A DNA stretch of 48,541 nucleotides from Deltaproteobacteria bacterium. GTDB taxonomy: Bacteria > Bdellovibrionota > JACOXK01 > 2-02-FULL-40-11. A program made the translations under genes and the position numbers. Numbering within the stretch: position 1 is the first letter of the stretch; each line of letters opens with the position of its first letter. The notes beneath the pieces were generated by a model. That model was not told the DNA's origin. It searched no databases and saw nothing but the letters and a program-made list of their open reading frames with translations. The stretch is from assembly GCA_016198185.1 (NCBI GenBank), contig JACQJD010000084.1, positions 1-48,541 of the forward strand, in the 5' to 3' direction. Positions 31,589 through 46,870 of this stretch are shown here, one piece after another.

Positions 31589-33913
31589 TTAGTCCGCATC
31601 CTTTCTGAATTCAGGAGCAATTTTTTTCTGCAGAACCGGAGCGCTATGCCGTTCACAAAATGTTTTTGGCTCGGTTCCTTTTAAAAACACTTCTGTGAGG
31701 CGTTCTGGACAACGGCGTGTTGCCAATTGCGCTGTCCGAGGATCGATTTCTACGGAGATGATTTTTTCTGGAACTTGAAAAGAGGCTTGTTTTTTTCCAC
31801 GTGTTGTTTGCAGCATAAACCGTGTCCAGAGTGGGAGAGCAGCTTGTGCCCCCGTTAGCCCTAATCTTTTTTCTTGGTCAAACCCTACCCACGAAACAGC
31901 GACCAATTGAGACGTATAGCCTGCAAACCAAGCATCTACATAATCATTGGTGGTGCCGGTTTTTCCAGCGGCAACGGCATTGAACCCAAACATGCGCACC
32001 CCAATACCGGAACCTCTTTCCAATACACCCTGGAGCGCTTGGGTGATTAAGTAGGTGGATTGTTCAGAGACGACTTTTTTGGCCTCTGGCGCACGTTCCG
32101 TTAAAATGGCTCCATCGGGACTTACCACATGCTTAATGGCGTAAGGGGGAACATAAAATCCACCATTGGCTAACGTACTGTAGGCGCCGGCCATCTCAAG
32201 CGGACTTACTTCTGCGCTCCCCAAAGCCAGTGAGGGAACTTGTGGAAGATAACTTGTGATCCCCATTTTTTTTGCTTGGGCAGCAATGTGTGGAATGCCA
32301 ACGTCGAGAGCTACTTTGGCTGTGGGAATGTTGATCGATAGTTCCAAGGCAGTTCGAAGGGAAACTTCTTCATAATATTTTTCTTCATAATTTTGAGGTT
32401 CCCACTGGTGGTGATCATATTCATAGACAAAGGGTTCATCTTTTAACAGGGTTGAAAGAGTATATTTTTGGGGAAGTCTTTCGAAAGCCGTTAAAAAAAC
32501 GAGTGGTTTAAATAAAGACCCAACTTGTCGTTTGGCTTGGGTGACGCGATTAAACTGGCTCTGTTCATAGTTTTTTCCACCCACCAGAGCTTTGATCCAG
32601 CCTGTTTGAGGTTGCACAGCAATCAACGCACCTTGAAGCGAAGCAGCGTTCTGAGGAACCGTTAATTCTTGAACATGAATTTTTTCTAGGGCTGCCAAGG
32701 TGATCTCCATGGCTTGATTGGCGTAGAGTTGAAGATCTATATCTAATGATGTAAAAATTCTTAACCCCTGCGTTAAAATGACATTTTCAGGATATCGTTC
32801 TAAAAGTTCTTGGCGTACGTGATCCACAAAATAAGGGGCACTGTTTTTGACCGATGGGACTTTTGAAGGATGTAAGGCTTCTGCAAGCGCCTCTTGATAT
32901 TCTGCCGGAAGAATCAACTGGTGCTCTTTCATTTTTTGAAGCACTATATTTCTGCGTTGAATTGTCTTTTTTGGGTTTTTAAAAGGTGAATGAAGGCCTG
33001 GATTTTGAATCATTCCCCCTAAAATGGCACATTCTGAAAGGGTCAATCGATCCAATGATTTTGAGAAGTAAAATTGGGCAGCCTTTTTCATGCCATGAAT
33101 CGAAGTCGATCCACGCTGTCCCATATAGACCTCGTTGATATAGGCTTCTAAAATGACATCTTTGCTGTATTTGCTTTCAACGATTAATGCCATGAGTGCT
33201 TCATTGATTTTTCGAGAGTAACTTCTTTTTTGCGTGAGAAAAAAATTTTTAACCAGCTGTTGGGTTAAGGTAGACCCGCCTTGAACAATTTTCCCAGATT
33301 TTAGATTGGTGAGAAATGCACGAAGAATTCCTTTGGGATCAATACCGGAGTGCTCTAGAAAACGAGCATCTTCAATCACCACAATGGCATTGAGAAGATG
33401 GGCTGGTAAAGCTTCAAGTTTTGCGATCTCTCGGTCAGAGCGAATTCCTCTAAAAAATTCCGAGATGAGTTCCGGTTCTAGTTCAACCATATCCAATGCT
33501 TGAGACCCTTTGAGGGCGACCTTTTCAAGAGAGACGAGCATTCCTTGTTTGACTGTCCATCGAACGGGAAAGCCTTTAAAAGAACGAGTGGGGTAATCAA
33601 AATCTTTGAGATACAAAATCCAAATTTCTTGAGAAGGTGAATTGGAAGAATCAATAAAATATTCCCCAGGTCTCATCGAAGGGCTGGTGACAAACCGATA
33701 CCCCAAGCGGTCCAATTTGGATTTAAGATTTAAAGACTGAATTTGAACGCCTGGAAAAAGGTGTGTGCTTTCAGAAAACACTTTTGAAGGGATATCCCAG
33801 CGAAGCTCAGAAAATCTTTGCTGAACAACAGAAGTCAAATGGAAGAGATAAATAACTGCACCCATCAGGAGGATGATCGCTAACATTCCGAGTAGGATAA
33901 AAAATCGTTTCAC
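31589..33913 (-). CDS. mrcB: Bifunctional penicillin-binding protein 1B-like (transglycosylase/transpeptidase)
   Basis: 774 residues: one N-terminal membrane anchor, a UB2H-like segment (~60-130), a GT51 transglycosylase domain with EDARFLEHSGID and GGSTLTQQLVKN, and a transpeptidase domain with RQVGSLFKPL (SxxK), the ELSINIP region (SxN) and GKTGTTNDY (KTGT). It polymerises and cross-links peptidoglycan. GTG start with GGAAGG upstream. The UB2H-like domain favours PBP1B over PBP1A. Confidence 0.93.
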   Translation of the reverse strand: MKRFFILLGMLAIILLMGAVIYLFHLTSVVQQRFSELRWDIPSKVFSESTHLFPGVQIQSLNLKSKLDRLGYRFVTSPSMRPGEYFIDSSNSPSQEIWILYLKDFDYPTRSFKGFPVRWTVKQGMLVSLEKVALKGSQALDMVELEPELISEFFRGIRSDREIAKLEALPAHLLNAIVVIEDARFLEHSGIDPKGILRAFLTNLKSGKIVQGGSTLTQQLVKNFFLTQKRSYSRKINEALMALIVESKYSKDVILEAYINEVYMGQRGSTSIHGMKKAAQFYFSKSLDRLTLSECAILGGMIQNPGLHSPFKNPKKTIQRRNIVLQKMKEHQLILPAEYQEALAEALHPSKVPSVKNSAPYFVDHVRQELLERYPENVILTQGLRIFTSLDIDLQLYANQAMEITLAALEKIHVQELTVPQNAASLQGALIAVQPQTGWIKALVGGKNYEQSQFNRVTQAKRQVGSLFKPLVFLTAFERLPQKYTLSTLLKDEPFVYEYDHHQWEPQNYEEKYYEEVSLRTALELSINIPTAKVALDVGIPHIAAQAKKMGITSYLPQVPSLALGSAEVSPLEMAGAYSTLANGGFYVPPYAIKHVVSPDGAILTERAPEAKKVVSEQSTYLITQALQGVLERGSGIGVRMFGFNAVAAGKTGTTNDYVDAWFAGYTSQLVAVSWVGFDQEKRLGLTGAQAALPLWTRFMLQTTRGKKQASFQVPEKIISVEIDPRTAQLATRRCPERLTEVFLKGTEPKTFCERHSAPVLQKKIAPEFRKDAD

Positions 33914-36018: not shown

Positions 36019-37137
36019 ATGGTTGAAATTGAAACAATCAATAGAGATCAGTTTGAACAGATTGTCTATTGTAGTGATCCTGCCGTTGGTCTTAAATCAA
36101 TTATTGCGATTCATGATACAACCCTAGGCCCAGCAACTGGGGGCTGTCGATTTTTCCCTTATCCATCAGAAGAAGATGCACTCAAAGATGTTTTGCGTTT
36201 GGCGAAAGGCATGACCTATAAGTCCGCTTTGAGTGATGTAGCGTTTGGCGGGGGTAAAGCCGTGATTATCGGAGATCCTCAAAAAATAAAGACAAAAGCG
36301 TTACTTCAAAGATTTGCTCAATTCGTCAACACCCTCAATGGTCATTATATTACGGCCAAAGATGTTGGTATCTCCGGGGAAGACCTTCGTGTAATGTCTG
36401 AAGTTACCCAACATATTTTGGGGATTGAAGGAAAAGCAGATTCTTCTGGGGATCCTTCCATTGCAACGGCTTTTGGGATGATGCGGTCCTTCGATGCTTT
36501 GGCAAAGGAGATCTTGGGAAAATCTTCTTTGAAAAGTTTGACATTTGCCATTCAAGGGGTGGGTTCTGTGGGCCATTATTTGGCAGAAAATTTGGGGGAA
36601 CTTGGGGCAAACGTTATTATTACAGATATCGATCAAAACAATATCAGAGCGGTTCAACATAAAATTTCAAATATTCAGGTTGTAAATCCCAATGACATTT
36701 ATGGGATTCAATGTGATTTTTTTGTCCCCTGTGCTTTGGGGGGTATTTTAAATCAAGAAACGATTCCCAGATTAAAGTGTGGTATTGTGGCAGGCAGTGC
36801 CAACAATCAATTGGCGACCCTTCAAGATGGCTTTCGACTTTCTGAGCGATCTATTTTTTATGCGCCGGATTACGTGGTGAATGCAGGCGGGATTATTAAT
36901 ATTGCAGAAGAACGATTGGGATATGATCGCAAACGTGCTTTTGAACATGTTGGGCGTATCTATAACACCGTGGTTGAAATTATCAGACGAGCTAAAAACG
37001 CTCATAAAGCCCCCTTTTTAATTGCGGATCAAATGGCGGAAGAAATTTTAGAGCAAGCTAAAAAAAAAAACACGAAAATGCAGCCATTAAGAAATTTGCA
37101 TAAGATATCCCATCAGAATCATCTCAACCCCCTCTAA
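36019..37137 (+). CDS. ldh: Leucine/phenylalanine/valine dehydrogenase family
   Basis: 372 residues. Glu/Leu/Phe/Val dehydrogenase: LGPATGGCRFFPYPSEEDAL, the catalytic-Lys segment GMTYKSALSDVAFGGGKAV, DVGIS loop, and the NAD-binding IQGVGSVGHYLAENL. It reversibly deaminates branched-chain or aromatic amino acids to keto acids with NAD. Leucine dehydrogenase is the closest reading; the exact preference cannot be proved from sequence. It has a short 3' tail with TKMQPL. No SD is obvious at the ATG. Confidence 0.9.
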   Translation: MVEIETINRDQFEQIVYCSDPAVGLKSIIAIHDTTLGPATGGCRFFPYPSEEDALKDVLRLAKGMTYKSALSDVAFGGGKAVIIGDPQKIKTKALLQRFAQFVNTLNGHYITAKDVGISGEDLRVMSEVTQHILGIEGKADSSGDPSIATAFGMMRSFDALAKEILGKSSLKSLTFAIQGVGSVGHYLAENLGELGANVIITDIDQNNIRAVQHKISNIQVVNPNDIYGIQCDFFVPCALGGILNQETIPRLKCGIVAGSANNQLATLQDGFRLSERSIFYAPDYVVNAGGIINIAEERLGYDRKRAFEHVGRIYNTVVEIIRRAKNAHKAPFLIADQMAEEILEQAKKKNTKMQPLRNLHKISHQNHLNPL

Positions 37138-37262: not shown

Positions 37263-37283
37263 AACCATTCTGAGATATGGGAA
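37197..37283. repeat. Perfect 29-bp inverted repeat overlapping the D-aminoacylase start
   Basis: Arms 37197-37225 and 37255-37283 are exact reverse complements, and five more base pairs (GTTGG/CCAAC) continue inward after a one-base bulge. The right arm contains the ATG at 37277 and part of its upstream region. There is no T-run, so it is not an ordinary terminator. Confidence 0.9.
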
Positions 37284-38890
37284 TTGATATGCTTGATCTT
37301 TTAATTCAGCAGGCGACTGTTTACGATGGTTCCTTAAAGTCTGCTGAAGTTTTAGATGTTGCGGTTTGTGGGGATAAAATTCAAAAAATTGCACCTCATC
37401 TTCAAATCAAAGCGCGTCAAGTCATTCAAGCCAAAGGACTGGTACTTTCCCCTGGATTTATTGATGTTCATTCTCATTCTGATTATTTTATTTTAATCAA
37501 CCCCAGTGCGGAGAGTAAAATTACGCAGGGGGTTACTTCTGAAATTGGCGGAAATTGTGGGTATGCCGCAGCGCCCATTTGGGGGGAAGCCCAAAAAACC
37601 CGCGAAGCTGAATACGAAAAATATTATGGATTAAAACTAGGCTGGAGTGATTTAAAAAGCTATTTTGCACGACTCGAAAAAGAAAAAATTGGCCTCAATT
37701 ATGGTCAATTGGTAGGGCATAATACACTTCGTCAATCTGTGATGGGTGTTGTAAATCGCCAGGCGACAGATCCAGAAATAAAAGCCATGAAGCAGGGCTT
37801 GCGGCAAGGCTTAGAGCAAGGTGCCGTTGGACTCTCCACGGGGTTAATTTATCCACCGGCCTGTTATGCAGATACCCGTGAGGCGCAAGCACTTGCCAAC
37901 GTTTGTCGGGAATTTGATGCTATTTTTACGTTTCATATGAGAAGTGAAAGTGATGGTTTAATCGAAGCCGTTGAAGAAGTCTTAAACATCGCTGAAACGA
38001 CAGGTGTTCGGGTTCAAATTTCACACATCAAAACTTCAGGAGAACGAAATTGGCACAAGATTGATCGCGTTTTTGAACTCATTGAAGCAGCACAAAAAAA
38101 GGGGCTGGATGTTGCATGTGATCGATATCCCTACATTGCTTCCCAAACGGGACTCATGCAGGTTTTACCACAATGGACCTTTGAAGGGGGTCCCCTGGGA
38201 TTGGTAAAAACCCTTCAAGATCCAGACAATCGAAAAAAAATAAAAGATGAAATTTTAGCGCTTCATCCCTTGCATGAAAAATATTTTGAAAAAGTATGCA
38301 TTATGGAAGTGATGTCTGAAAAAAACAAAACCTATGTTGGGTGTTCGATTGAAAAAGCAGCCAAGAAGGCAAACCGTGATTCTTTTGAATTTTTGTTTGA
38401 TCTTTTGATTGAAGAAAATGCAGCGATTTCAGCTATTTATTTCACAATGTCAGAGGAAAATTTAAAGCGGTTTATCCATAAGGACTACATTTTTATTGCT
38501 TCCGATGCAGGATGTCGAGCTACTTCTGGGCCTTTGGCAAAGGGGGCGCCCCATCCACGAATTTTTGGGACCTTCCCGCGGGTTATCAAAAAATATGTTC
38601 GACAAGAACAGACACTGACCTTGTCACAAGCTATTTATAAAATGACCGGTCAACCAGCGGAGCGATTTCAACTTCAAAACAGAGGATTTGTTCGTGAGGG
38701 GTATACTGCGGACCTTGTTTTGTTTGACGAAAAAAAGATTCAAGATCGATCGGATTTTTTTGATCCTTTTCATTACGCGCAAGGGATTGAATTTGTTTGG
38801 GTGAATGGGCAAGCGGTCATTGAAAAAGGAAAACAGACAGGCGTTCGACCAGGCAAAATTTTACTCAGGGGTTCCCGAAGGAGTTCGTAG
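37277..38890 (+). CDS. N-acyl-D-amino-acid deacylase (D-aminoacylase)
   Basis: 537 residues; amidohydrolase fold. SPGFIDVHSHSDYF carries the His pair, EIGGNCGYAAAPI the conserved Cys, QISHIKTSG the carboxylated-Lys/His region, and ASDAGCRAT the catalytic Asp. It releases D-amino acids from N-acylated forms; some homologues act on D-amino-acid peptides or dihydropyrimidine-like compounds. The start may be ATG 37277 or ATG 37289; the first lies in the hairpin arm. The 3' end overlaps convergent nagZ by 30 bp. Placement next to cell-wall-recycling genes suggests D-amino-acid salvage. Confidence 0.88.
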   Translation: MGIDMLDLLIQQATVYDGSLKSAEVLDVAVCGDKIQKIAPHLQIKARQVIQAKGLVLSPGFIDVHSHSDYFILINPSAESKITQGVTSEIGGNCGYAAAPIWGEAQKTREAEYEKYYGLKLGWSDLKSYFARLEKEKIGLNYGQLVGHNTLRQSVMGVVNRQATDPEIKAMKQGLRQGLEQGAVGLSTGLIYPPACYADTREAQALANVCREFDAIFTFHMRSESDGLIEAVEEVLNIAETTGVRVQISHIKTSGERNWHKIDRVFELIEAAQKKGLDVACDRYPYIASQTGLMQVLPQWTFEGGPLGLVKTLQDPDNRKKIKDEILALHPLHEKYFEKVCIMEVMSEKNKTYVGCSIEKAAKKANRDSFEFLFDLLIEENAAISAIYFTMSEENLKRFIHKDYIFIASDAGCRATSGPLAKGAPHPRIFGTFPRVIKKYVRQEQTLTLSQAIYKMTGQPAERFQLQNRGFVREGYTADLVLFDEKKIQDRSDFFDPFHYAQGIEFVWVNGQAVIEKGKQTGVRPGKILLRGSRRSS

Positions 38891-39952
38891 CTGTTTTGCC
38901 AGTTCTTGATGCGTCTCACACCCTACAATTTTTTGGATGTCATCGATGGAAACGGGCGCAAATGGCAAAATATATCGATTTCTGATTTTGGTGATTCGTT
39001 CGGAACTTTCTTCAATCCGGGTTACGGGAATTTTTAAATCCAAAACGCCCCGCAGGACTGTTTCAATAGCTTTGATTTGATTTTCATGCTTTTTGCAGAT
39101 CAGTAAAAAATCAACATCGGCTTGGATGGAAAGTTGGGTGGCTTCTTCGATGGAATAATGATCTAAGATGGCTTTCATTTCCAAGTCATCGGTGATGATG
39201 CCCTTTTGAAATCGTAAATCTTCTCTCAAATAGCGAAGTGTTTTTTTAGACAACGTTGCGGGATAGGTGGGATCCAGATTTTTGTTAAAAATGTGAGCCG
39301 TCATCACCGTTTCGATACCACTTCGAATAACGCGTTCAAAGGGAATCCATTCGCGAGTTTTGAGTTGTTCTATAGAAGTTTCTACCGTTGGAAGTTCCAG
39401 ATGAGAATCTGTTTGGGTGTCGCCGTGGCCTGGAAAGTGTTTCGCGCAGGCCACCACCCCACCCCGTTGCAATCCTCTAAAAAAGCCAGAAGCAATTTTT
39501 GAAACTTCATTGGGATCTGAACTAAAGGCGCGATCCCCAATGATTGGATTTTGGGGGTTGGTGTTGATATCGACCACGGGTGCAAAATTAAAATTAACCC
39601 CAATGGCTCGAAGTTCTTGGGCAACTGCAAATCCAATATCAAAAGAAAGCTTCGGAGAAGGCGTTTTAACAAAATCTGAGGGATTTCCAAAATCTGTAAA
39701 AGGCTCTTTAAATCTTCGGACCTTTCCCAGCTCTTGATCTACGCAAATAAATAAAGGTGTTTTGCTTAAAGCTTGAATGTCATTGGTGAGCGTGGCCACT
39801 TGCTCCAACGACTCAATATTGCGCGAAAAGAGAACGACACCGCCAATGAAATAGTTTTCAATAATATGTTTTAATTCTGAAGAAACAGTGGTTCCTTCAA
39901 ATCCCACCATAAACATTTGCCCAACGCGACGACGAATCTGATCTAGTTTCAT
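38861..39952 (-). CDS. nagZ: Beta-N-acetylglucosaminidase NagZ (GH3)
   Basis: 363 residues. GH3 fold with FICVDQELGKV, the catalytic-loop signature AKHFPGHGDTQTDSH (residues ~170-184) including the Asp-His dyad, and the nucleophile region GIITDDLEMKAI near D255. It removes GlcNAc from GlcNAc-anhydroMurNAc muropeptides in the cytoplasm. It ends the oppB-oppC-nagZ operon, 33 nt after oppC. Confidence 0.93.
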   Translation of the reverse strand: MKLDQIRRRVGQMFMVGFEGTTVSSELKHIIENYFIGGVVLFSRNIESLEQVATLTNDIQALSKTPLFICVDQELGKVRRFKEPFTDFGNPSDFVKTPSPKLSFDIGFAVAQELRAIGVNFNFAPVVDINTNPQNPIIGDRAFSSDPNEVSKIASGFFRGLQRGGVVACAKHFPGHGDTQTDSHLELPTVETSIEQLKTREWIPFERVIRSGIETVMTAHIFNKNLDPTYPATLSKKTLRYLREDLRFQKGIITDDLEMKAILDHYSIEEATQLSIQADVDFLLICKKHENQIKAIETVLRGVLDLKIPVTRIEESSERITKIRNRYILPFAPVSIDDIQKIVGCETHQELAKQLRTPSGTPE

Positions 39953-39985
39953 ACCCTGTTAACCTATAACAAATGAGGATCCATT

Positions 39986-40813
39986 TTAAATCATTTTTTG
40001 AGAATGTTTCATTTTAGGATCTAAGAGATCACGCAAGCCATCTCCGATAAAATTAAATCCCAAAACAATCAGCATAATGGCAAGTCCTGGAAAAATAGCC
40101 ACAAAGCCAGGTTGAAATGCAGATTGCTTGGCGAGATTGAGCATGTTTCCCCAACTCGGCGCATCGGGAGGGACCCCAACGCCTAAAAAGCTTAAGCTGG
40201 ATTCACCAATGATGACGCCCCCCATAAAAAAAGAAGCTTGAATCATGAGGGGTGCTAAAATATTTGGCCAAATGTGCCGGATCAAAATATAGAAATGCCC
40301 TGCTCCCAGGGAATGTGCAGCCAAAACAAAATCCTTTTCCTTTTCCACCAAAACTTGGCTCCGAGCCACCCTAGCAAAGCCCGTCCAGCCCACCAATGAA
40401 AAAATCAGGATTAAATTGATAAGACTTGGTTTTAAAAATGCGGCCAATGCAAAAATTAAGAGTAATCCAGGAAATGCCAAGAGAATATCCACACACCGCA
40501 TAATGAGCTCTTCAACCCAAGAGCCAAAATATCCTGCTGCCGAACCCAGACACAATCCAATGATGAGGGCAAACAAGGTTGATAGACAAGAAACGACCAA
40601 AGAAATACGTGCGCCATAAATTATTTTACTCCAAATATCACTGCCTAATTTATCTTGTCCCAGCCAATGGATATGAGAAGGGGGTGAAAATCTTTCTTCA
40701 AGCATGGTTGCTTTTGGGTCATAGCTTGTTATCCAAGGCGCACAGAGTCCTATTAAAATAAACATGGCTAAAATGCCGCTTCCAATGATGGTACGAAGAT
40801 TTATTTTTTTCAT
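39986..40813 (-). CDS. DppC/OppC-type peptide ABC transporter permease
   Basis: 275 residues. Inner-membrane permease with the DppC N-terminal segment (PWITSYDPKATMLEERFSPP, then HWLGQDKLGSDIWSKII) and the coupling-loop EAA-like region (FVLAAHSLGAGHFYILIRHI). It pairs with the OppB protein it overlaps by 4 bp (ATGA). No binding protein or ATPase gene lies nearby. Confidence 0.92.
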   Translation of the reverse strand: MKKINLRTIIGSGILAMFILIGLCAPWITSYDPKATMLEERFSPPSHIHWLGQDKLGSDIWSKIIYGARISLVVSCLSTLFALIIGLCLGSAAGYFGSWVEELIMRCVDILLAFPGLLLIFALAAFLKPSLINLILIFSLVGWTGFARVARSQVLVEKEKDFVLAAHSLGAGHFYILIRHIWPNILAPLMIQASFFMGGVIIGESSLSFLGVGVPPDAPSWGNMLNLAKQSAFQPGFVAIFPGLAIMLIVLGFNFIGDGLRDLLDPKMKHSQKMI

Positions 40814-41727
40814 GAATATCGAATACGTGGGTCTAAAAGCCCATACATTAAATCCGTTATCAAATTAACCATTACATAAAGACAAGCAATGACAAGCACA
40901 CAACCTTGAACCATCGGATAATTTCGTGATTGAATGGCCTCAACGAGCAGCGTTCCAATGCCAGGCCAATCGAAAACCGTCTCAGTGATGACGGCACCTG
41001 AAAGCAAAGCACCCGTTTGAATCCCTGCAATGGTTAAGACTGGGATGAGAGCATTTTTGAGTGTGTGTTTGAGCAGAATTTTTTCGCGAGAAAGACCTTT
41101 GGCCCATGCGGTTCGAATATAATCTTGTTGTAATACTTCTAAAGTGGAGGTTCGTGTCAGCCGTGAAAGCAGTGCCATGAGGGCTGTTCCTAACGTCAGC
41201 GCTGGCAAAATAACGCTGAGCAGCCCTTCATTTCCAGAAATGGGAAATAATGGAAGATGGTAAGCAAATATTAAAATGAGCAGTGGCCCTAACCAGAAAT
41301 GGGGCATGGAAATTCCCAGCAAGGCCAACGTCATGGCACTGTAATCAATCAAGGTTCCTTGTTTGACGGCTGCCCAAAGTCCCAGTGGAAGTGCAAATAC
41401 CAACGCAAAACCCATGGCCCACACGGCAAGCTCTAAGGTGGCTGGAAATCGGCTGAAAATTTCTTTCCACACGCTTTGACGTGTATGAATAGACCTTAAA
41501 TTTCCTGTGAACAAATCTTTCACAAAAAAAACATATTGTTTGTGCAAGGGTTCATCTAAATGAAGTAAATGCGTCAAATAGGCTCTATCTTGGGGAAGTG
41601 CATTTTCACCCAAGATCAGATCAACGGGATTTCCAGGAATAAAATACATGAGAGAAAAGACGATGATGGAAATCCCAAATAAAATAGGAAGAAGTAACGT
41701 GAGCCGTCGTAATACGAATCGTTGCAT
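40810..41727 (-). CDS. DppB/OppB-type peptide ABC transporter permease
   Basis: About 305 residues from ATG 41727, where RFVLRRLTLLLPILFGISII begins as in OppB; an upstream frame extends ~36 more residues into the divergent gene and is unlikely. Contains YFIPGNPVDLILG and the coupling region TAWAKGLSREKILLKHTLKN. First gene of the oppB-oppC-nagZ operon, and divergent from the M20 gene only ~50 bp away. No strong RBS is visible. Confidence 0.88.
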   Translation of the reverse strand: MQRFVLRRLTLLLPILFGISIIVFSLMYFIPGNPVDLILGENALPQDRAYLTHLLHLDEPLHKQYVFFVKDLFTGNLRSIHTRQSVWKEIFSRFPATLELAVWAMGFALVFALPLGLWAAVKQGTLIDYSAMTLALLGISMPHFWLGPLLILIFAYHLPLFPISGNEGLLSVILPALTLGTALMALLSRLTRTSTLEVLQQDYIRTAWAKGLSREKILLKHTLKNALIPVLTIAGIQTGALLSGAVITETVFDWPGIGTLLVEAIQSRNYPMVQGCVLVIACLYVMVNLITDLMYGLLDPRIRYS

Positions 41728-41777
41728 CGACGAAAGTATAGCATTTTCAGGAAAGATTATGCTAATCTTTTGCCACC

Positions 41778-42944
41778 ATGCGTGTTGCAAAAATTCATGA
41801 AGTCCTGGAACAGGTAAGCCCGTCTTTAAAATCATTGGCCATGTTTATTGGGAACCATCCCGAACTTAATTTTAATGAGTTTCTGGCTCAAGCCAAGCTG
41901 GTTTCTTTTTTAAAGCAGCATCATTTTAAAATTCAAAAAGGGGTTGGCGGTTTGCCCACGGCATTTGTCGGATCCTTTGGGCGCGGCCGACCGCATATTG
42001 GTTATTTGGCTGAATATGATGCATTGCCAGGCATTGGCCATGCCTGTGGACATAACCTGATTGGGACAGCAAGCTGTGGTGCAGCCGTTGCATTGGCAAA
42101 GTGTTTGGAAGGAAAATCTGGAACTGTTTTTGTGATGGGATGTCCTGCAGAAGAAGGCGGCGGCGGGAAAGTGATTCTTTCTCAAAAAGGGCTTTTTAAA
42201 AGATTAGATTGCGCCATGATGGCGCACCCAGATTCCAAAACGGAAGTGATTAAATTTATGTTGGCGCTCATGGAAATCGATATTGAATTTTTTGGGAAAC
42301 AAGCGCATGCAGCAGCAGAGCCCGAAAAAGGAATCAATGCATTAGATGCAGCGGCGGCCACCTATGTGCGGATTCTAAAATTTAGAAAAACTTTAAAAAA
42401 AGATGCCAGAGTTCATGGTGTTTTTGCCCATGCTGGCGTTAAGCCCAATATCATTCCAGAATACGCTTCTCTAAAATACTATGTAAGATCTCTCCAGATG
42501 GCAGATGTAAAGATGATTGTCGATCAGATGACACGCATTGCCAAAGAAGAAGCCCAGAAACAAAAAGCAACCATTCACATAACCCAAAACCCGCTTCCCT
42601 ATGAACCTTTTTATCCGAATCGCGCGTTAGGCAAAATTTTTGAAAAACAACTGACGGGATTGGGTGTTCATCATGAACAAGGGGATCCTAAAAAAAGAAT
42701 TGGATCTTCAGATATTGGAAATGTGAGTCAAGTGGTCCCCACCCTTCATCCCTCGATTCAAATTTGCGATGATTTTTCTTGTCATACCCCTCAATTTGCT
42801 AAGGCTGCGTTGACCGAACGTGCGATGAAAAGCATGGTGCTTGCGGCCAAAGCTTTGGCGCTGACAGGGTTAGAGCTTATCTCACAGCCAGCGCACTTAA
42901 AAAAAATTCATGAAGAATTCAAAAAAACACACGCAAAAAATTAG
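41778..42944 (+). CDS. M20-family amidohydrolase/peptidase (PM20D2/AbgB-like)
   Basis: 388 residues. M20 metallopeptidase with GYLAEYDALPGIGHACGHN (the metal-ligand region), CPAEEGGGGKV (bridging Glu-Glu), FGKQAHAAAEPEKGINALDA (dimerisation domain), and C-terminal SSDIGNVSQVVPT. It hydrolyses peptide or acyl bonds; the aminobenzoyl-glutamate/PM20D2 group cleaves N-acyl or dipeptide substrates. Adjacent recycling genes suggest a peptide-trimming role, which is inference. Overlaps anmK by 35 bp. Confidence 0.85.
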   Translation: MRVAKIHEVLEQVSPSLKSLAMFIGNHPELNFNEFLAQAKLVSFLKQHHFKIQKGVGGLPTAFVGSFGRGRPHIGYLAEYDALPGIGHACGHNLIGTASCGAAVALAKCLEGKSGTVFVMGCPAEEGGGGKVILSQKGLFKRLDCAMMAHPDSKTEVIKFMLALMEIDIEFFGKQAHAAAEPEKGINALDAAAATYVRILKFRKTLKKDARVHGVFAHAGVKPNIIPEYASLKYYVRSLQMADVKMIVDQMTRIAKEEAQKQKATIHITQNPLPYEPFYPNRALGKIFEKQLTGLGVHHEQGDPKKRIGSSDIGNVSQVVPTLHPSIQICDDFSCHTPQFAKAALTERAMKSMVLAAKALALTGLELISQPAHLKKIHEEFKKTHAKN

Positions 42945-44115
42945 AAAACAAATTATTGGTTTAATTTCTGGTACGTCCTCAGATGGCATAGATGCAGCAT
43001 TGGTTGACATTGAAGCCCAGGGTCATGAGCGGAAAGTGGATCTCAAGGCCTTTGAGACTTATGCCTACCCCAAAAAAATTCGGTCCAAAATTTTGGAATT
43101 GGCGCATGCAGAAAAAATCATATTGGATGAGCTTTGTTCTTTTCAGATTATTTTAGGAGATTTGTTTGGAGATGCAGCTCTTGCGATTGCAAAAAAAGCA
43201 AAGGTGCCTTTATCCCAAATTGATTTAATTGGGTCACATGGACAAACCATTCGACATTTACCGCCTACGGCATCCTTCAACAGAGGGATGAGTTTTCAGA
43301 TTGCGGAAGCTGCGATGATTGTTTGCAAGACAAAGGTAACCACCGTTTCAGATTTTAGAGTGAATGACATGGCATGGGGTGGGCATGGGGCTCCTTTAAC
43401 ACCCTATCTTCATTATTATCTGTTTCATCAGGTTGGATACGGAGTGGCGATTCAAAACATTGGTGGTATGAGCAATGTAACGGTGATTCCCAGCAATGCT
43501 TCTTTGAAAGACGTCGTTGCCTTTGATACGGGGCCTGGCAATGCCTTAATTGATGCCATGGTTTCACACGCAACGCGTGGGAAGAAGCAATTTGATGCGG
43601 ATGGCGCAATGGCGGCCAAAGGAAAAGTTCAAACACTGTTTTTAAATAAACTTTTAAAACATCCTTTCTTTTTTAAAAAACCCCCGAAATCGACAGGGCG
43701 AGAAGAATTTGGGGTTGTATTTGCAAAGCATATTTTGTCATTGGCAAAAGGCATGTCGATGGAAGATCTCATTGCGACCGTAACAGCCCTCACGGCCCAC
43801 AGTATTTCCGAAAATTATTTTCGCTTTGTTTTTCCGAAAACAAAAATTCGAGAAATTATTTTAGGGGGTGGAGGTGCTAAAAATAAAACGCTGGTCCATT
43901 TTTTAAAACGGTGTATGCCGATGATTTCCCACAAACGGTTTGAAGACTATGGTTATAACAGCAGTGCCATTGAAGCCATGGCATTTGCACTTTTGGCTTT
44001 TGAAACAAGTCAAGGGACATGTGCTAATTTGCCAGAAGTGACGGGGGCTCAGCGAGAAGTTGTTTTAGGCAAAGTAACGCCCGGGGCTAATTTTCGGAGC
44101 ATTTGTTTGAAATGA
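42910..44115 (+). CDS. anmK: Anhydro-N-acetylmuramic acid kinase
   Basis: 401 residues, near the usual ~370-390. It cleaves the anhydro ring and phosphorylates anhydroMurNAc to MurNAc-6-phosphate. Signatures: IGLISGTSSDGIDAALVD, GSHGQTIRHLP, DFRVNDMAWGGHGAPL, QNIGGMSNVT, DTGPGNALIDAM, and ILGGGGAKNKTL near the C terminus. Start overlaps the M20 gene. The last 67 bp overlap the convergent uridylyltransferase gene, whose own C-terminal tail runs there. Confidence 0.95.
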   Translation: MKNSKKHTQKIRKQIIGLISGTSSDGIDAALVDIEAQGHERKVDLKAFETYAYPKKIRSKILELAHAEKIILDELCSFQIILGDLFGDAALAIAKKAKVPLSQIDLIGSHGQTIRHLPPTASFNRGMSFQIAEAAMIVCKTKVTTVSDFRVNDMAWGGHGAPLTPYLHYYLFHQVGYGVAIQNIGGMSNVTVIPSNASLKDVVAFDTGPGNALIDAMVSHATRGKKQFDADGAMAAKGKVQTLFLNKLLKHPFFFKKPPKSTGREEFGVVFAKHILSLAKGMSMEDLIATVTALTAHSISENYFRFVFPKTKIREIILGGGGAKNKTLVHFLKRCMPMISHKRFEDYGYNSSAIEAMAFALLAFETSQGTCANLPEVTGAQREVVLGKVTPGANFRSICLK

Positions 44116-44822
44116 CTCTTTTGGGATGCTGTTAAATATTTCAAATTATATTTTAAATAGAGATCGAGTGTTCCCAGATCAAGCCAAGCGCCACGGTAGA
44201 GACTTCCAAAGACAGGTGCTTTTTCCTGAATTAATTGAGCATAGACATCTGAATTGATACAAAATATTTTTTTATTTGGGAAACAATCAAATATTTCAGG
44301 CTCGAACAAATGAAGTCCGCAAAACATGACCCGCCGATAGCGTGGGTGAATCGTTTTAACTTTGAATTGTCGAATTTGATGTTGGGAATTTAACCCTAAG
44401 CACTCATAGCGTTCGGTGGGCTTGGGAGATCGAACCAACATCGTTGCCAATGATTTTTTGGCAAGATGAAATTTTAAAAGTTCTGAAATGGAAGGTTGCA
44501 TGACCACATCGCTGTTGATGACCACAAATCGATCTTCTTTTAAATAAGGTTTGGCTTTTAAAATTCCCCCGCCGGTCCCCAATATTTGGGGTTCATCCGA
44601 AAAGACAAACTCAAATTCTTTTTGGGTTTTTAAATATTTTTTTAAAGGATCTGGAAAGTGATGAAAATTGATAACCACTTCAAAGATATTGGCTTTTTTG
44701 AGAAGGTCTAGGGTATGACCGATCAGTGGTTTTTCTCTGAAGGGAAGTAGCGGTTTTGGGAAATGTTCTGTGAGTGGGTAAAGACGCGTTCCAAGACCTG
44801 CGGCCAAGATCATTGCTTTCAT
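44049..44822 (-). CDS. murU: MurU-like nucleotidyltransferase
   Basis: 257 residues. MKAMILAAGLGTRLYPLTEH followed by PKPLLPF is the sugar-1-phosphate nucleotidyltransferase signature; SDEPQILGTGGGI and VINSDVVM are further motifs. Adjacent to an AmgK-like kinase, it is best read as MurNAc-1-phosphate uridylyltransferase, giving UDP-MurNAc without new synthesis. MurU is usually ~220-240 residues; here the C-terminal ~20 residues extend over the anmK 3' end. No gap to the kinase gene. Confidence 0.8.
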   Translation of the reverse strand: MKAMILAAGLGTRLYPLTEHFPKPLLPFREKPLIGHTLDLLKKANIFEVVINFHHFPDPLKKYLKTQKEFEFVFSDEPQILGTGGGILKAKPYLKEDRFVVINSDVVMQPSISELLKFHLAKKSLATMLVRSPKPTERYECLGLNSQHQIRQFKVKTIHPRYRRVMFCGLHLFEPEIFDCFPNKKIFCINSDVYAQLIQEKAPVFGSLYRGAWLDLGTLDLYLKYNLKYLTASQKSHFKQMLRKLAPGVTLPKTTSR

Positions 44823-45851
44823 TTAGAGATCTCCGAATAAATTTTCTAGGACTTCATGAAATGCTTCGAGTTCTTTAAATTTTTTTAAATTTTTTTGTGC
44901 AGAAATCCACGTGGGTTTTAAATATTCAAGATACTGTGATTTTTGTTTTACGGTTTTGAGATAGCCAAAAGATCCCATGGCTTTTAAATTACGTTGAATG
45001 GAAACCCAATCGAAGGCCATGACAAAAGCTTCATATGAAAGTGGTTTTTTAAGGCGTTGTTCTTTTTCGAACAAATAGTATTTTAAGAGATCTTCAACGA
45101 GCGGTTCTGGAAGTTGAATGTAAGAATCTCGAAGCAAACTGGCTACATCATAATGACAAGGGCCCAATCGGGCATCTTGGAAATCGACAATGCCGATCCG
45201 CTGTTTTGTCATGAGTAAATTTTTACTGTGATAGTCCCGATGGCATAAACAGAGAGGTTCTTCATTGAGATGGCTTGAAATTTTTTGAAAACCAGTTTGA
45301 AGAACTTTATTTTCTTCAGGTGATATTTTTTTTTGAAGATGATTTTGAATTAAATGTTCTTTCATGAATTCGAGTTCAGCAAGAAATTTCTTCTCATCCA
45401 GTCGATGTTTCGTTGCGACACACCCTTCTAAGTTAGAACTGGCATCGATATGAAATTTTAAAAGTTCATCCAAGGCCAAAAAATAGTATTTTGCAGCAGC
45501 TTTAGGACCGAGATGCCGGTAAACCTTATCTAATAATTCATCTCCAAAATCTTCAATGAGAAAGGCGCCTAAATTTCCAGAAACAGCATAAATTTGAGGA
45601 ACGTGGATATCATTTTTTTGAAGGTGGGTTTGAATATTCAAATAGGGGTCTCGGGAGGGTTCAAACGGTTCTCTCTGGAGGAGGATCCAAGTTTTATTTT
45701 TATAAGATAGCCGAAAATACTGACGGTCTGAAGCATCTCCCGCAAGTTTGATGATGTTTAGGTGTTCACAAGATGTGTTGAGGTGTGCTTCGACAAAATG
45801 GATGATCTCAGGGGATCGGAGGTTATCGAACATCTGAAGGGGTGAGGCCAT
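44823..45851 (-). CDS. amgK: AmgK-like N-acetylmuramate/N-acetylglucosamine kinase
   Basis: 342 residues, aminoglycoside-phosphotransferase fold. LAGDASDRQYFRLSY near residues 36-50 is the AmgK-type start; LIEDFGDELLD follows; catalytic loop CHRDYHSKNLL (H204-D206), metal loop GIVDFQDARLGPCHYD, and VASLLRDSYIQLP are diagnostic. It phosphorylates the anomeric position of MurNAc. Paired with the MurU-like gene immediately downstream (stop and start adjoin). The start at 45851 overlaps the M48 gene by 29 bp; ATG 45833 is an alternative. Confidence 0.9.
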   Translation of the reverse strand: MASPLQMFDNLRSPEIIHFVEAHLNTSCEHLNIIKLAGDASDRQYFRLSYKNKTWILLQREPFEPSRDPYLNIQTHLQKNDIHVPQIYAVSGNLGAFLIEDFGDELLDKVYRHLGPKAAAKYYFLALDELLKFHIDASSNLEGCVATKHRLDEKKFLAELEFMKEHLIQNHLQKKISPEENKVLQTGFQKISSHLNEEPLCLCHRDYHSKNLLMTKQRIGIVDFQDARLGPCHYDVASLLRDSYIQLPEPLVEDLLKYYLFEKEQRLKKPLSYEAFVMAFDWVSIQRNLKAMGSFGYLKTVKQKSQYLEYLKPTWISAQKNLKKFKELEAFHEVLENLFGDL

Positions 45852-46716
45852 GTTGTTTTAAATAAGCATGATATTGGTTGATGAGCTGAGATTGTTCATG
45901 TTTTGAGGGATATTTTTGGAGAACTTTTTTCATTTCGCCAAATGAAGGCGTAGAGACAATCGGGTTTGGGTCGGCTTTATATTTTTGAACGGCCACCTTC
46001 ACTTCTTGAATACGAACATCCGGCGTTGGGTGCGTGGAGAGCATTTTTTCAAGGCGATTGGGTTTATCTTTATAGATTTTTTGAAGTTTCTCAAAAAAAG
46101 TATGGGCATAAGAAAGATCATAGTGACTGCGATGGAGTGATTCGACGCCAAATCCGTCGGATTCCAATTCGGCTTTTCGTCCATAAAAAAGAAGCCCTGT
46201 TTGGCCAAATAAATTAATGAGTTCCACTTGAATTTGTCCCAACCCAACCGCATTGGCAGTAATGGCCAAACAACAGGAAAATCCTTGAGCTTTCGTAAGT
46301 TGTTCCGTTCCATGTCGATACACCACGTGACCCATTTCGTGACCCAAGACCATGGCAAGTTCCGCTTCTTCTTCTACCACTTGCAGAAGTCCCAAATTCA
46401 CAAAAATATATCCGCCTGGAAGTGCAAAGGCATTGACTTGAGGGTCTTTTACAATTTTAAAATGATAATCAAACAGGCGTTCTTCCTCTGGAAATTGGTG
46501 GACAATTTTTTGTCCTAGATTATTGACGAAATCCAAAAGCCGTTCGTCGAATAACAAGGGCATCATTTTGGGAATTTGAGAGGCCCAATAGGCTCCGAGT
46601 TTTGCATCTTGTCCTGTGGAATACATATTGATATCGCCCTTATTGCGCCCGCTGGTAGCGCATTGCGTTAAAAATAGAAGCGATAAGAAAACAAATAATA
46701 TTCGATACACGCTCAT
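45823..46716 (-). CDS. M48-family metallopeptidase, probable lipoprotein
   Basis: About 297 residues from ATG 46716; an upstream GTG at 46848 would add 44 residues before the signal sequence and seems wrong. The signal peptide ends in LTQC (atypical lipobox, Gln at -1). Zinc site HEMGHVVYRHG (HExxH) and ELESDGFGV (third ligand Glu) are intact; STHPTPDVR is the BepA/LoiP-like C-terminal motif. It likely degrades or assists outer-membrane proteins in the periplasm. Precedes amgK in the same direction. Confidence 0.85.
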   Translation of the reverse strand: MSVYRILFVFLSLLFLTQCATSGRNKGDINMYSTGQDAKLGAYWASQIPKMMPLLFDERLLDFVNNLGQKIVHQFPEEERLFDYHFKIVKDPQVNAFALPGGYIFVNLGLLQVVEEEAELAMVLGHEMGHVVYRHGTEQLTKAQGFSCCLAITANAVGLGQIQVELINLFGQTGLLFYGRKAELESDGFGVESLHRSHYDLSYAHTFFEKLQKIYKDKPNRLEKMLSTHPTPDVRIQEVKVAVQKYKADPNPIVSTPSFGEMKKVLQKYPSKHEQSQLINQYHAYLKQHGLTPSDVR

Positions 46717-46870
46717 TTCAAAAACTTTATCAGAGCGATCATAAATAGTCCAACTTTTCAGTTTATGCCATACGCCTAAAACGAAATAATTTAATGGGGA
46801 CATCTGAAAATAGTTGAAATGATTTTTGAACTCTAATAGTGTTGTCACCTTAAGGTAGAAAATGTGTAAC

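Follow-up and report, generated by a model that had tools for sequence, protein, structure and literature searches.

In Escherichia coli, murein tripeptide is taken up by the binding protein MppA together with OppBCDF. In Agrobacterium tumefaciens the ATP-binding cassette (ABC) importer YejBEF-YepA performs the job of the permease AmpG (PMC9790009), and by analogy we regard it as the closest precedent for the system described here, part of which is encoded in a gene cluster of a deltaproteobacterial metagenome-assembled genome. The window, that is, the whole stretch of DNA that was analysed (48,541 nucleotides, contig JACQJD010000084.1 of assembly GCA_016198185.1), is the entire contig C42 of this genome, which has 1.77 Mb in 93 contigs and is 92% complete. 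The cluster contains genes for NagZ, AnmK, an AmgK-like kinase and a MurU-like nucleotidyltransferase together with DppB- and DppC-type permeases. We propose, with a probability of about two in three, that a Dpp-type ABC importer split over three loci imports muropeptides in place of AmpG and feeds the MurU route.

Comparison with described systems

The similarity to YejBEF-YepA lies in a peptide/nickel-class ABC importer taking the place of AmpG while NagZ is kept, with a binding protein that would set the substrate. The parts are different: the permeases are of the DppB/DppC type (DppB reaches 121 bits with YejB versus 332 with Opp2B, and both permeases are nearer to Opp2B/Opp4C/DppB than to YejB/YejE), DppD and DppF are separate instead of fused as in YejF, and the binding protein is a different one. 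Moreover, AmpD was not found in the genome, and the channel is encoded next to NagZ, AnmK, AmgK and MurU. With the AnmK-MupP-AmgK-MurU route of Pseudomonas (PMC5371407) the genome shares AnmK, NagZ and AmgK-like and MurU-like proteins as well as the lack of a MurQ over the cut-off; it differs in that neither AmpG nor AmpD nor a convincing MupP was found and in that most of the genes form one cluster.

The parallel to MppA/OppBCDF is that a binding protein serving wall material comes with neither a permease nor an ATPase of its own, as seen at the E. coli locus and predicted for the genome studied here. Unlike in E. coli, the permease is dedicated to a recycling cluster, and the binding protein belongs to a clade without the amine-binding Asp of MppA. 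AmpG (TIGR00901) would do the same job and adjoins NagZ or this very DppBC in some relatives, yet it is an unrelated permease of the major facilitator superfamily and was not found in the class to which the window belongs. In the open-licence literature we came across no account of a Dpp importer linked to NagZ, which does not prove that none exists.

Conservation of the channel and its linkage to NagZ

DppB (40810..41727), DppC (39986..40813) and NagZ (38861..39952) form a tight run on the minus strand, with a 4-bp overlap followed by a 33-bp gap, and these overlapping or nearly touching genes look like one operon. The start of DppB was corrected: the open reading frame list places it at 41835 (341 aa), 36 residues too early, and the conserved start is at 41727. 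DppB is recognised by NF045470 (332 bits), DppC by PF00528, its nearest families being Opp/Dpp/Nik C with scores under all equivalog cut-offs, and NagZ, a beta-N-acetylhexosaminidase of family GH3, by NF003740 (251 bits, cut-off 207). The NagZ motifs KHFPGHGDTQTDSH and ITDDLEM line up with those of solved GH3 N-acetylglucosaminidases.

The cluster was compared in 59 genomes, namely its own (G000) and G001-G058, of which G001-G005 are from the same family, G006-G007 from the same class and the others from the same phylum. The order D-aminoacylase, NagZ, DppC, DppB, M20, AnmK, MurU, AmgK, M48 is kept in G001-G005, with some breaks at contig ends, and is largely kept in G006 and G007, from the other family of the class. 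A distance of at most 3.6 kb between NagZ and DppB was seen in 23 of the 59 genomes, spread over seven families. This conservation of order across the family, and of the NagZ-DppB linkage beyond the class, shows that the arrangement is more than chance. Family f7 has AmgK-MurU-DppB-DppC-NagZ on one strand and in that order in three genomes, clearly in G012 (L143) and G026 (L145) and, with genes less cleanly called, in G033 (L146). AmpG can be found at the same spot: it occupies the place adjoining NagZ in family f10 (G015, G022), and G057 has it in one locus with DppB and DppC, a binding protein lying between AmpG and DppBC. AnmK, AmgK and MurU travel together in all AnmK-bearing relatives with a locus of readable length, including those with AmpG.

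One branch of the DppB tree, with support of 95/95 when four long rows were left out, splits all NagZ- or AmpG-linked DppB from all others, and the DppB of the window is on the linked side.

Two kinds of neighbourhood were observed in addition. In family f2 (L025:10486-11721, L036:2159-3397) a gene resembling CNNM/CorC-type transporters directly follows DppBC and precedes AnmK or NagZ. In the more distant bins L099, L094, L061, L074 and L108, labelled Chloroflexi/Anaerolineae and Bacteroidetes, AnmK adjoins Dpp-type ABC genes; in L099 (Chloroflexi) and L061 (labelled Bacteroidetes) these are a binding protein and DppBC, and in L074 and L108 NagZ is present as well. Judging from these neighbourhoods, ABC importers for wall fragments may occur beyond the phylum of the window.

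Distribution of AmpG

A search with TIGR00901, which detects AmpG over the cut-off in 17 of the first 33 genomes, found none in the eight genomes of the class (G000-G007), one of which, G002, is 100% complete. Seven further genomes with NagZ-linked DppBC, namely G014, G019, G032, G044, G046, G054 and G058, gave no AmpG either. When only genomes of 90% completeness or more are counted, AmpG is missing from 11 and present in 7 of those with the linkage, and missing from 1 and present in 26 of those without it (Fisher p = 3e-5, to be taken as a guide only, as the genomes share ancestry and the tests are not independent). Only G047 (93% complete, 450 contigs) of these 45 genomes has neither AmpG nor the Dpp system. 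The same pattern is seen within families f9 and f12, where all members without the Dpp system carry AmpG and all members without AmpG carry the Dpp system.

An orphan binding protein

DppBC by itself cannot function as an importer; candidates for the binding protein and the ATPases are encoded elsewhere in the genome. A substrate-binding protein without its own permease is encoded at C87:8661-10199 (locus L034:6662-8200, minus strand). The nearly closed genome G002 has three DppBC loci, two of them with a binding protein alongside; the NagZ-linked locus is the only one without, and the only permease-less binding protein of G002 is on its contig C16; the C87 protein is the counterpart of this protein. 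In a tree of 51 binding proteins all 26 of the C87 type, including the copy in G057, fall on one side of a branch with 99/99 support, and a smaller tree returned the same clade at 100/99. A protein of this type is present in all 24 genomes with NagZ- or AmpG-linked DppBC and was found in 3 of the 35 without; in 13 genomes without this system the top-scoring binding protein was classed by score only. The three are G010 and G018, both incomplete and without AmpG, and G034; on their account the idea of a clade confined to genomes with this DppBC was dropped.

On C87 the gene for the binding protein stands head-to-head with dacB (PBP4; Peptidase_S13). This arrangement was seen in 18 of 25 loci of the C87-type binding protein and in 0 of 25 loci for the other, operon-borne binding proteins. 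A response regulator with a GGDEF domain was also seen beside the permease-less binding protein, in the genome studied here (L034:5658-6677) and in G010 (L218:1781-2809).

A possible hint to the ligand is given by the Asp that holds the free amino group of a bound peptide, which we take from the structures to be residue 408 in DppA and 419 in OppA. It is present at this position in E. coli DppA, OppA and MppA, and a gap or another residue is found in all readable members of the C87 clade. In a muropeptide the amine of L-Ala is blocked by the lactyl group of N-acetylmuramic acid (MurNAc), and the missing Asp fits a ligand of this kind. At the level of sequence, the loss would exclude an ordinary peptide binder, and it fits a muropeptide binder without proving one.

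The Asp bears on the likeliest alternative, in which the Dpp-type system takes up free murein peptides, or peptides of any kind, while some other route serves the sugar half. Dpp/Opp systems are peptide importers, peptide enzymes (M20 and the D-aminoacylase-like protein) are encoded beside DppBC, and E. coli mppA likewise lies near the murein-peptide enzyme genes ycjG and mpaA, all of which would agree with such a role. Nevertheless, we consider it unlikely: the clade lacks the Asp for a free peptide amine, the partner found nearest to DppBC and in most lineages is NagZ, which acts on sugars and to which f7 adds AmgK and MurU, and with AmpG absent the sugars would require a route of their own. 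Uptake of muropeptides remains our preferred reading for the NagZ-linked channel.

ATPases and a second Dpp operon

The genome has a single DppDF ATPase pair, found with oligo_HPY at C54:52022-53973. The two proteins (326 and 324 aa) are encoded by separate genes and are nearest to OppD/DppD and DppF. G002 also has only one such pair, and in both genomes it is located apart from any DppBC. By elimination, the C54 pair is likely the motor of the NagZ-linked channel and would be shared with other Dpp channels. A full Dpp/Opp-type set is thereby present in the genome, with the binding protein on C87, DppBC on C42 and DppDF on C54. The sequence-only reading had noted that the Dpp ATPases were missing from the window, and the pair on C54 would fill this gap; full Opp operons elsewhere, which it had named as a possible objection, turned up in part, in the form of a second Dpp locus (C63), yet with only the one DppDF pair in the genome.

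This second locus, a binding protein and DppB, is at the end of C63 (C63:23048-25711, L035). A corresponding operon of binding protein, DppB and DppC is present in the class, in families f1 and f2: at L200:1797-6586 in G005, L199 in G001 and L165 in G002. The G005 copy has an Amidase_2 protein after it, and in G001 and G004 Amidase_2 matches are near the operon. The binding protein of this operon likewise lacks the peptide-amine Asp, and the operon is possibly a second wall-fragment importer.

It might be argued that the linkage at NagZ means only that recycling genes are kept together and that another transporter, for example this second operon, does the job of AmpG. The presence of the operon in both f1 and f2, the amidase following or close to it and the lack of the Asp would speak for this explanation, which we nonetheless judge improbable: the G005 amidase has a signal-peptide-like start and looks periplasmic, and the operon is untied to NagZ, AnmK, AmgK and MurU in all genomes seen.

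Proposed recycling pathway

According to our model, the cluster would encode the inner-membrane and cytoplasmic half of cell-wall recycling. PBP4, the product of dacB, would trim the wall outside, and muropeptides freed from it would enter via the Dpp-type importer and not via AmpG; both this substrate and the inward direction of transport are predictions. The channel would be DppBC of the cluster, with its binding protein from C87 and DppDF from C54, a pair that other Dpp channels probably use as well. In the cytoplasm, NagZ would take off N-acetylglucosamine, AnmK would yield MurNAc-6-phosphate and a phosphatase would convert this to MurNAc. AmgK would then produce MurNAc-1-phosphate and MurU UDP-MurNAc, so that MurA is bypassed, while the peptide is probably processed by the D-aminoacylase-like and M20 enzymes. 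The activities are in all cases those expected from the protein families.

The M20 metallopeptidase/amidohydrolase (41778..42944, plus strand; TIGR01891, 209 bits, cut-off 154) has HmrA (3ram) and the Xaa-Arg dipeptidase PM20D2 (7yh4) as its closest solved structures. Its gene overlaps that of AnmK, the anhydro-N-acetylmuramic acid kinase (42910..44115, plus strand; NF007148, 463 bits, cut-off 387; PF03702), and the two are divergent from the DppB-DppC-NagZ run. The D-aminoacylase-like amidohydrolase (37277..38890, plus strand, 537 aa; Pfam PF07969/PF01979) meets NagZ tail to tail; its relatives in the PDB are 1m7j (D-aminoacylase), 3gip (N-acyl-D-glutamate deacylase) and 9kb1 (PpOngB). It adjoins NagZ in f1, f2 and G018 and belongs to the conserved cluster. 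On the minus strand, M48, AmgK and MurU (46848 down to 44049) converge on AnmK. The MurU-like nucleotidyltransferase (44049..44822) has MurU as its top NCBIfam (NF045761, 142 bits, cut-off of 250 not reached), and the MurU structure 4y7t matches at 2.4e-21, ranking under non-MurU nucleotidyltransferases, e.g. 7whr at 1.3e-27. The AmgK-like sugar kinase of APH fold (44823..45851), closest to structure 3csv, likewise has AmgK as top family (NF045759, 147 bits) and does not reach the cut-off of 550. The names AmgK and MurU are thus likely, not proven: they denote the best families, yet with scores under the curated cut-offs.

The sequence-only reading had placed NagZ, AnmK, the MurU-like and AmgK-like proteins, DppBC and M20 at 38861-45851, and profile matches bear out every one of them; as an account of the whole cluster it fell short, overlooking the D-aminoacylase-like neighbour. 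It had also asked about genes elsewhere in the genome, and here a search for AmpG and for AmpD (the latter with PF01510, Amidase_2) found neither. MurQ was not found over the cut-off in the 21 genomes searched, which is expected for an anabolic AmgK/MurU route; weak matches to the MurQ model are partial, lie inside longer frames and are probably other SIS-domain proteins. For MupP the answer is less simple: there is no convincing match in the genome, and the sole HAD found by TIGR01449, on C49, was rejected as a candidate, being closer to beta-phosphoglucomutase (117 bits, versus 37 for MupP with a cut-off of 359) and located upstream of an aminoethylphosphonate-type ABC operon. The Amidase_2 proteins of G001, G004 and G005 were discarded as AmpD, as the G005 protein, the one that was read, starts with a signal-peptide-like stretch and by its sequence looks periplasmic and not like a cytoplasmic AmpD. 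AmpD is mostly missing from AmpG-bearing relatives too, so its absence is uninformative as regards M20 specifically, and the M20 and D-aminoacylase-like enzymes are no more than candidates for amide cleavage.

That MurNAc is not the sugar used by the AmgK-like and MurU-like proteins, or that AnmK acts on another anhydrosugar, would account for the low AmgK and MurU scores, the levoglucosan kinase as closest solved relative of AnmK and the lack of a convincing MupP, yet it is very improbable given that AnmK passes its own equivalog cut-off, stays with AmgK and MurU whether or not AmpG is present, and is accompanied by no MurQ over the cut-off.

Points that weigh against a muropeptide importer

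Several observations count against our proposal. AmgK (147/550 bits) and MurU (142/250 bits) are under their curated cut-offs, two steps are without an assigned enzyme as MupP and AmpD were not found, the assignment of the ATPases was made by elimination only, the genome is a 92%-complete assembly from a metagenome, and the shared ancestry of the genomes limits the Fisher test. The Asp is found in 19 of 44 binding proteins from outside the C87 clade, and its absence is thus not specific to the clade; the notion that this clade alone lacks it was abandoned, as other binding-protein types are without it too. Eight genomes hold both AmpG (strong or weak matches) and NagZ-linked DppBC. A strict rule that DppBC occurs only where AmpG is absent was discarded for this reason, and the Dpp system can coexist with AmpG and is not only a replacement. 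The earlier suggestion that the permeases replace AmpG is supported: AmpG was not found, the linkage is conserved and a matching binding protein and ATPase pair exist elsewhere. The earlier interpretation as a whole, in which the M20 enzyme may also take the place of an amidase or peptidase, is upheld in part.

Neighbouring genes

Upstream of AmgK a lipoprotein peptidase of the M48/BepA-like type is encoded (45823..46848, minus strand, true start probably near 46713; PF01435), which is a conserved neighbour of AmgK in f1, f2 and f8/f15. A gene of the Glu/Leu/Phe/Val dehydrogenase type is located at 36019-37137 (nearest to the tryptophan dehydrogenase ScyB, 350 bits versus a cut-off of 600); G003 and G005 keep this gene upstream of the cluster as well. 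A PBP1B-like penicillin-binding protein is encoded at 31589-33913, about 5 kb from the cluster.

Meaning for cell-wall recycling

Recovery of wall fragments by Gram-negative bacteria without AmpG is known for a few groups only, and the system described here is a concrete candidate for the transporter involved, throughout one class and in parts of several further families. We think it somewhat more probable than the contrary that a Dpp-type importer for peptidoglycan turnover products, present in much of one phylum and encoded in pieces (the channel with NagZ, the binding protein with dacB, the ATPases shared), has an origin separate from that of YejBEF-YepA and enables entire lineages to do without AmpG. 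This points to more than one origin of muropeptide import by ABC transporters. The example also illustrates that a scattered transporter can be reassembled by matching its orphan parts. Uptake of wall fragments bears on tolerance to beta-lactams and fosfomycin and on the use of wall material.

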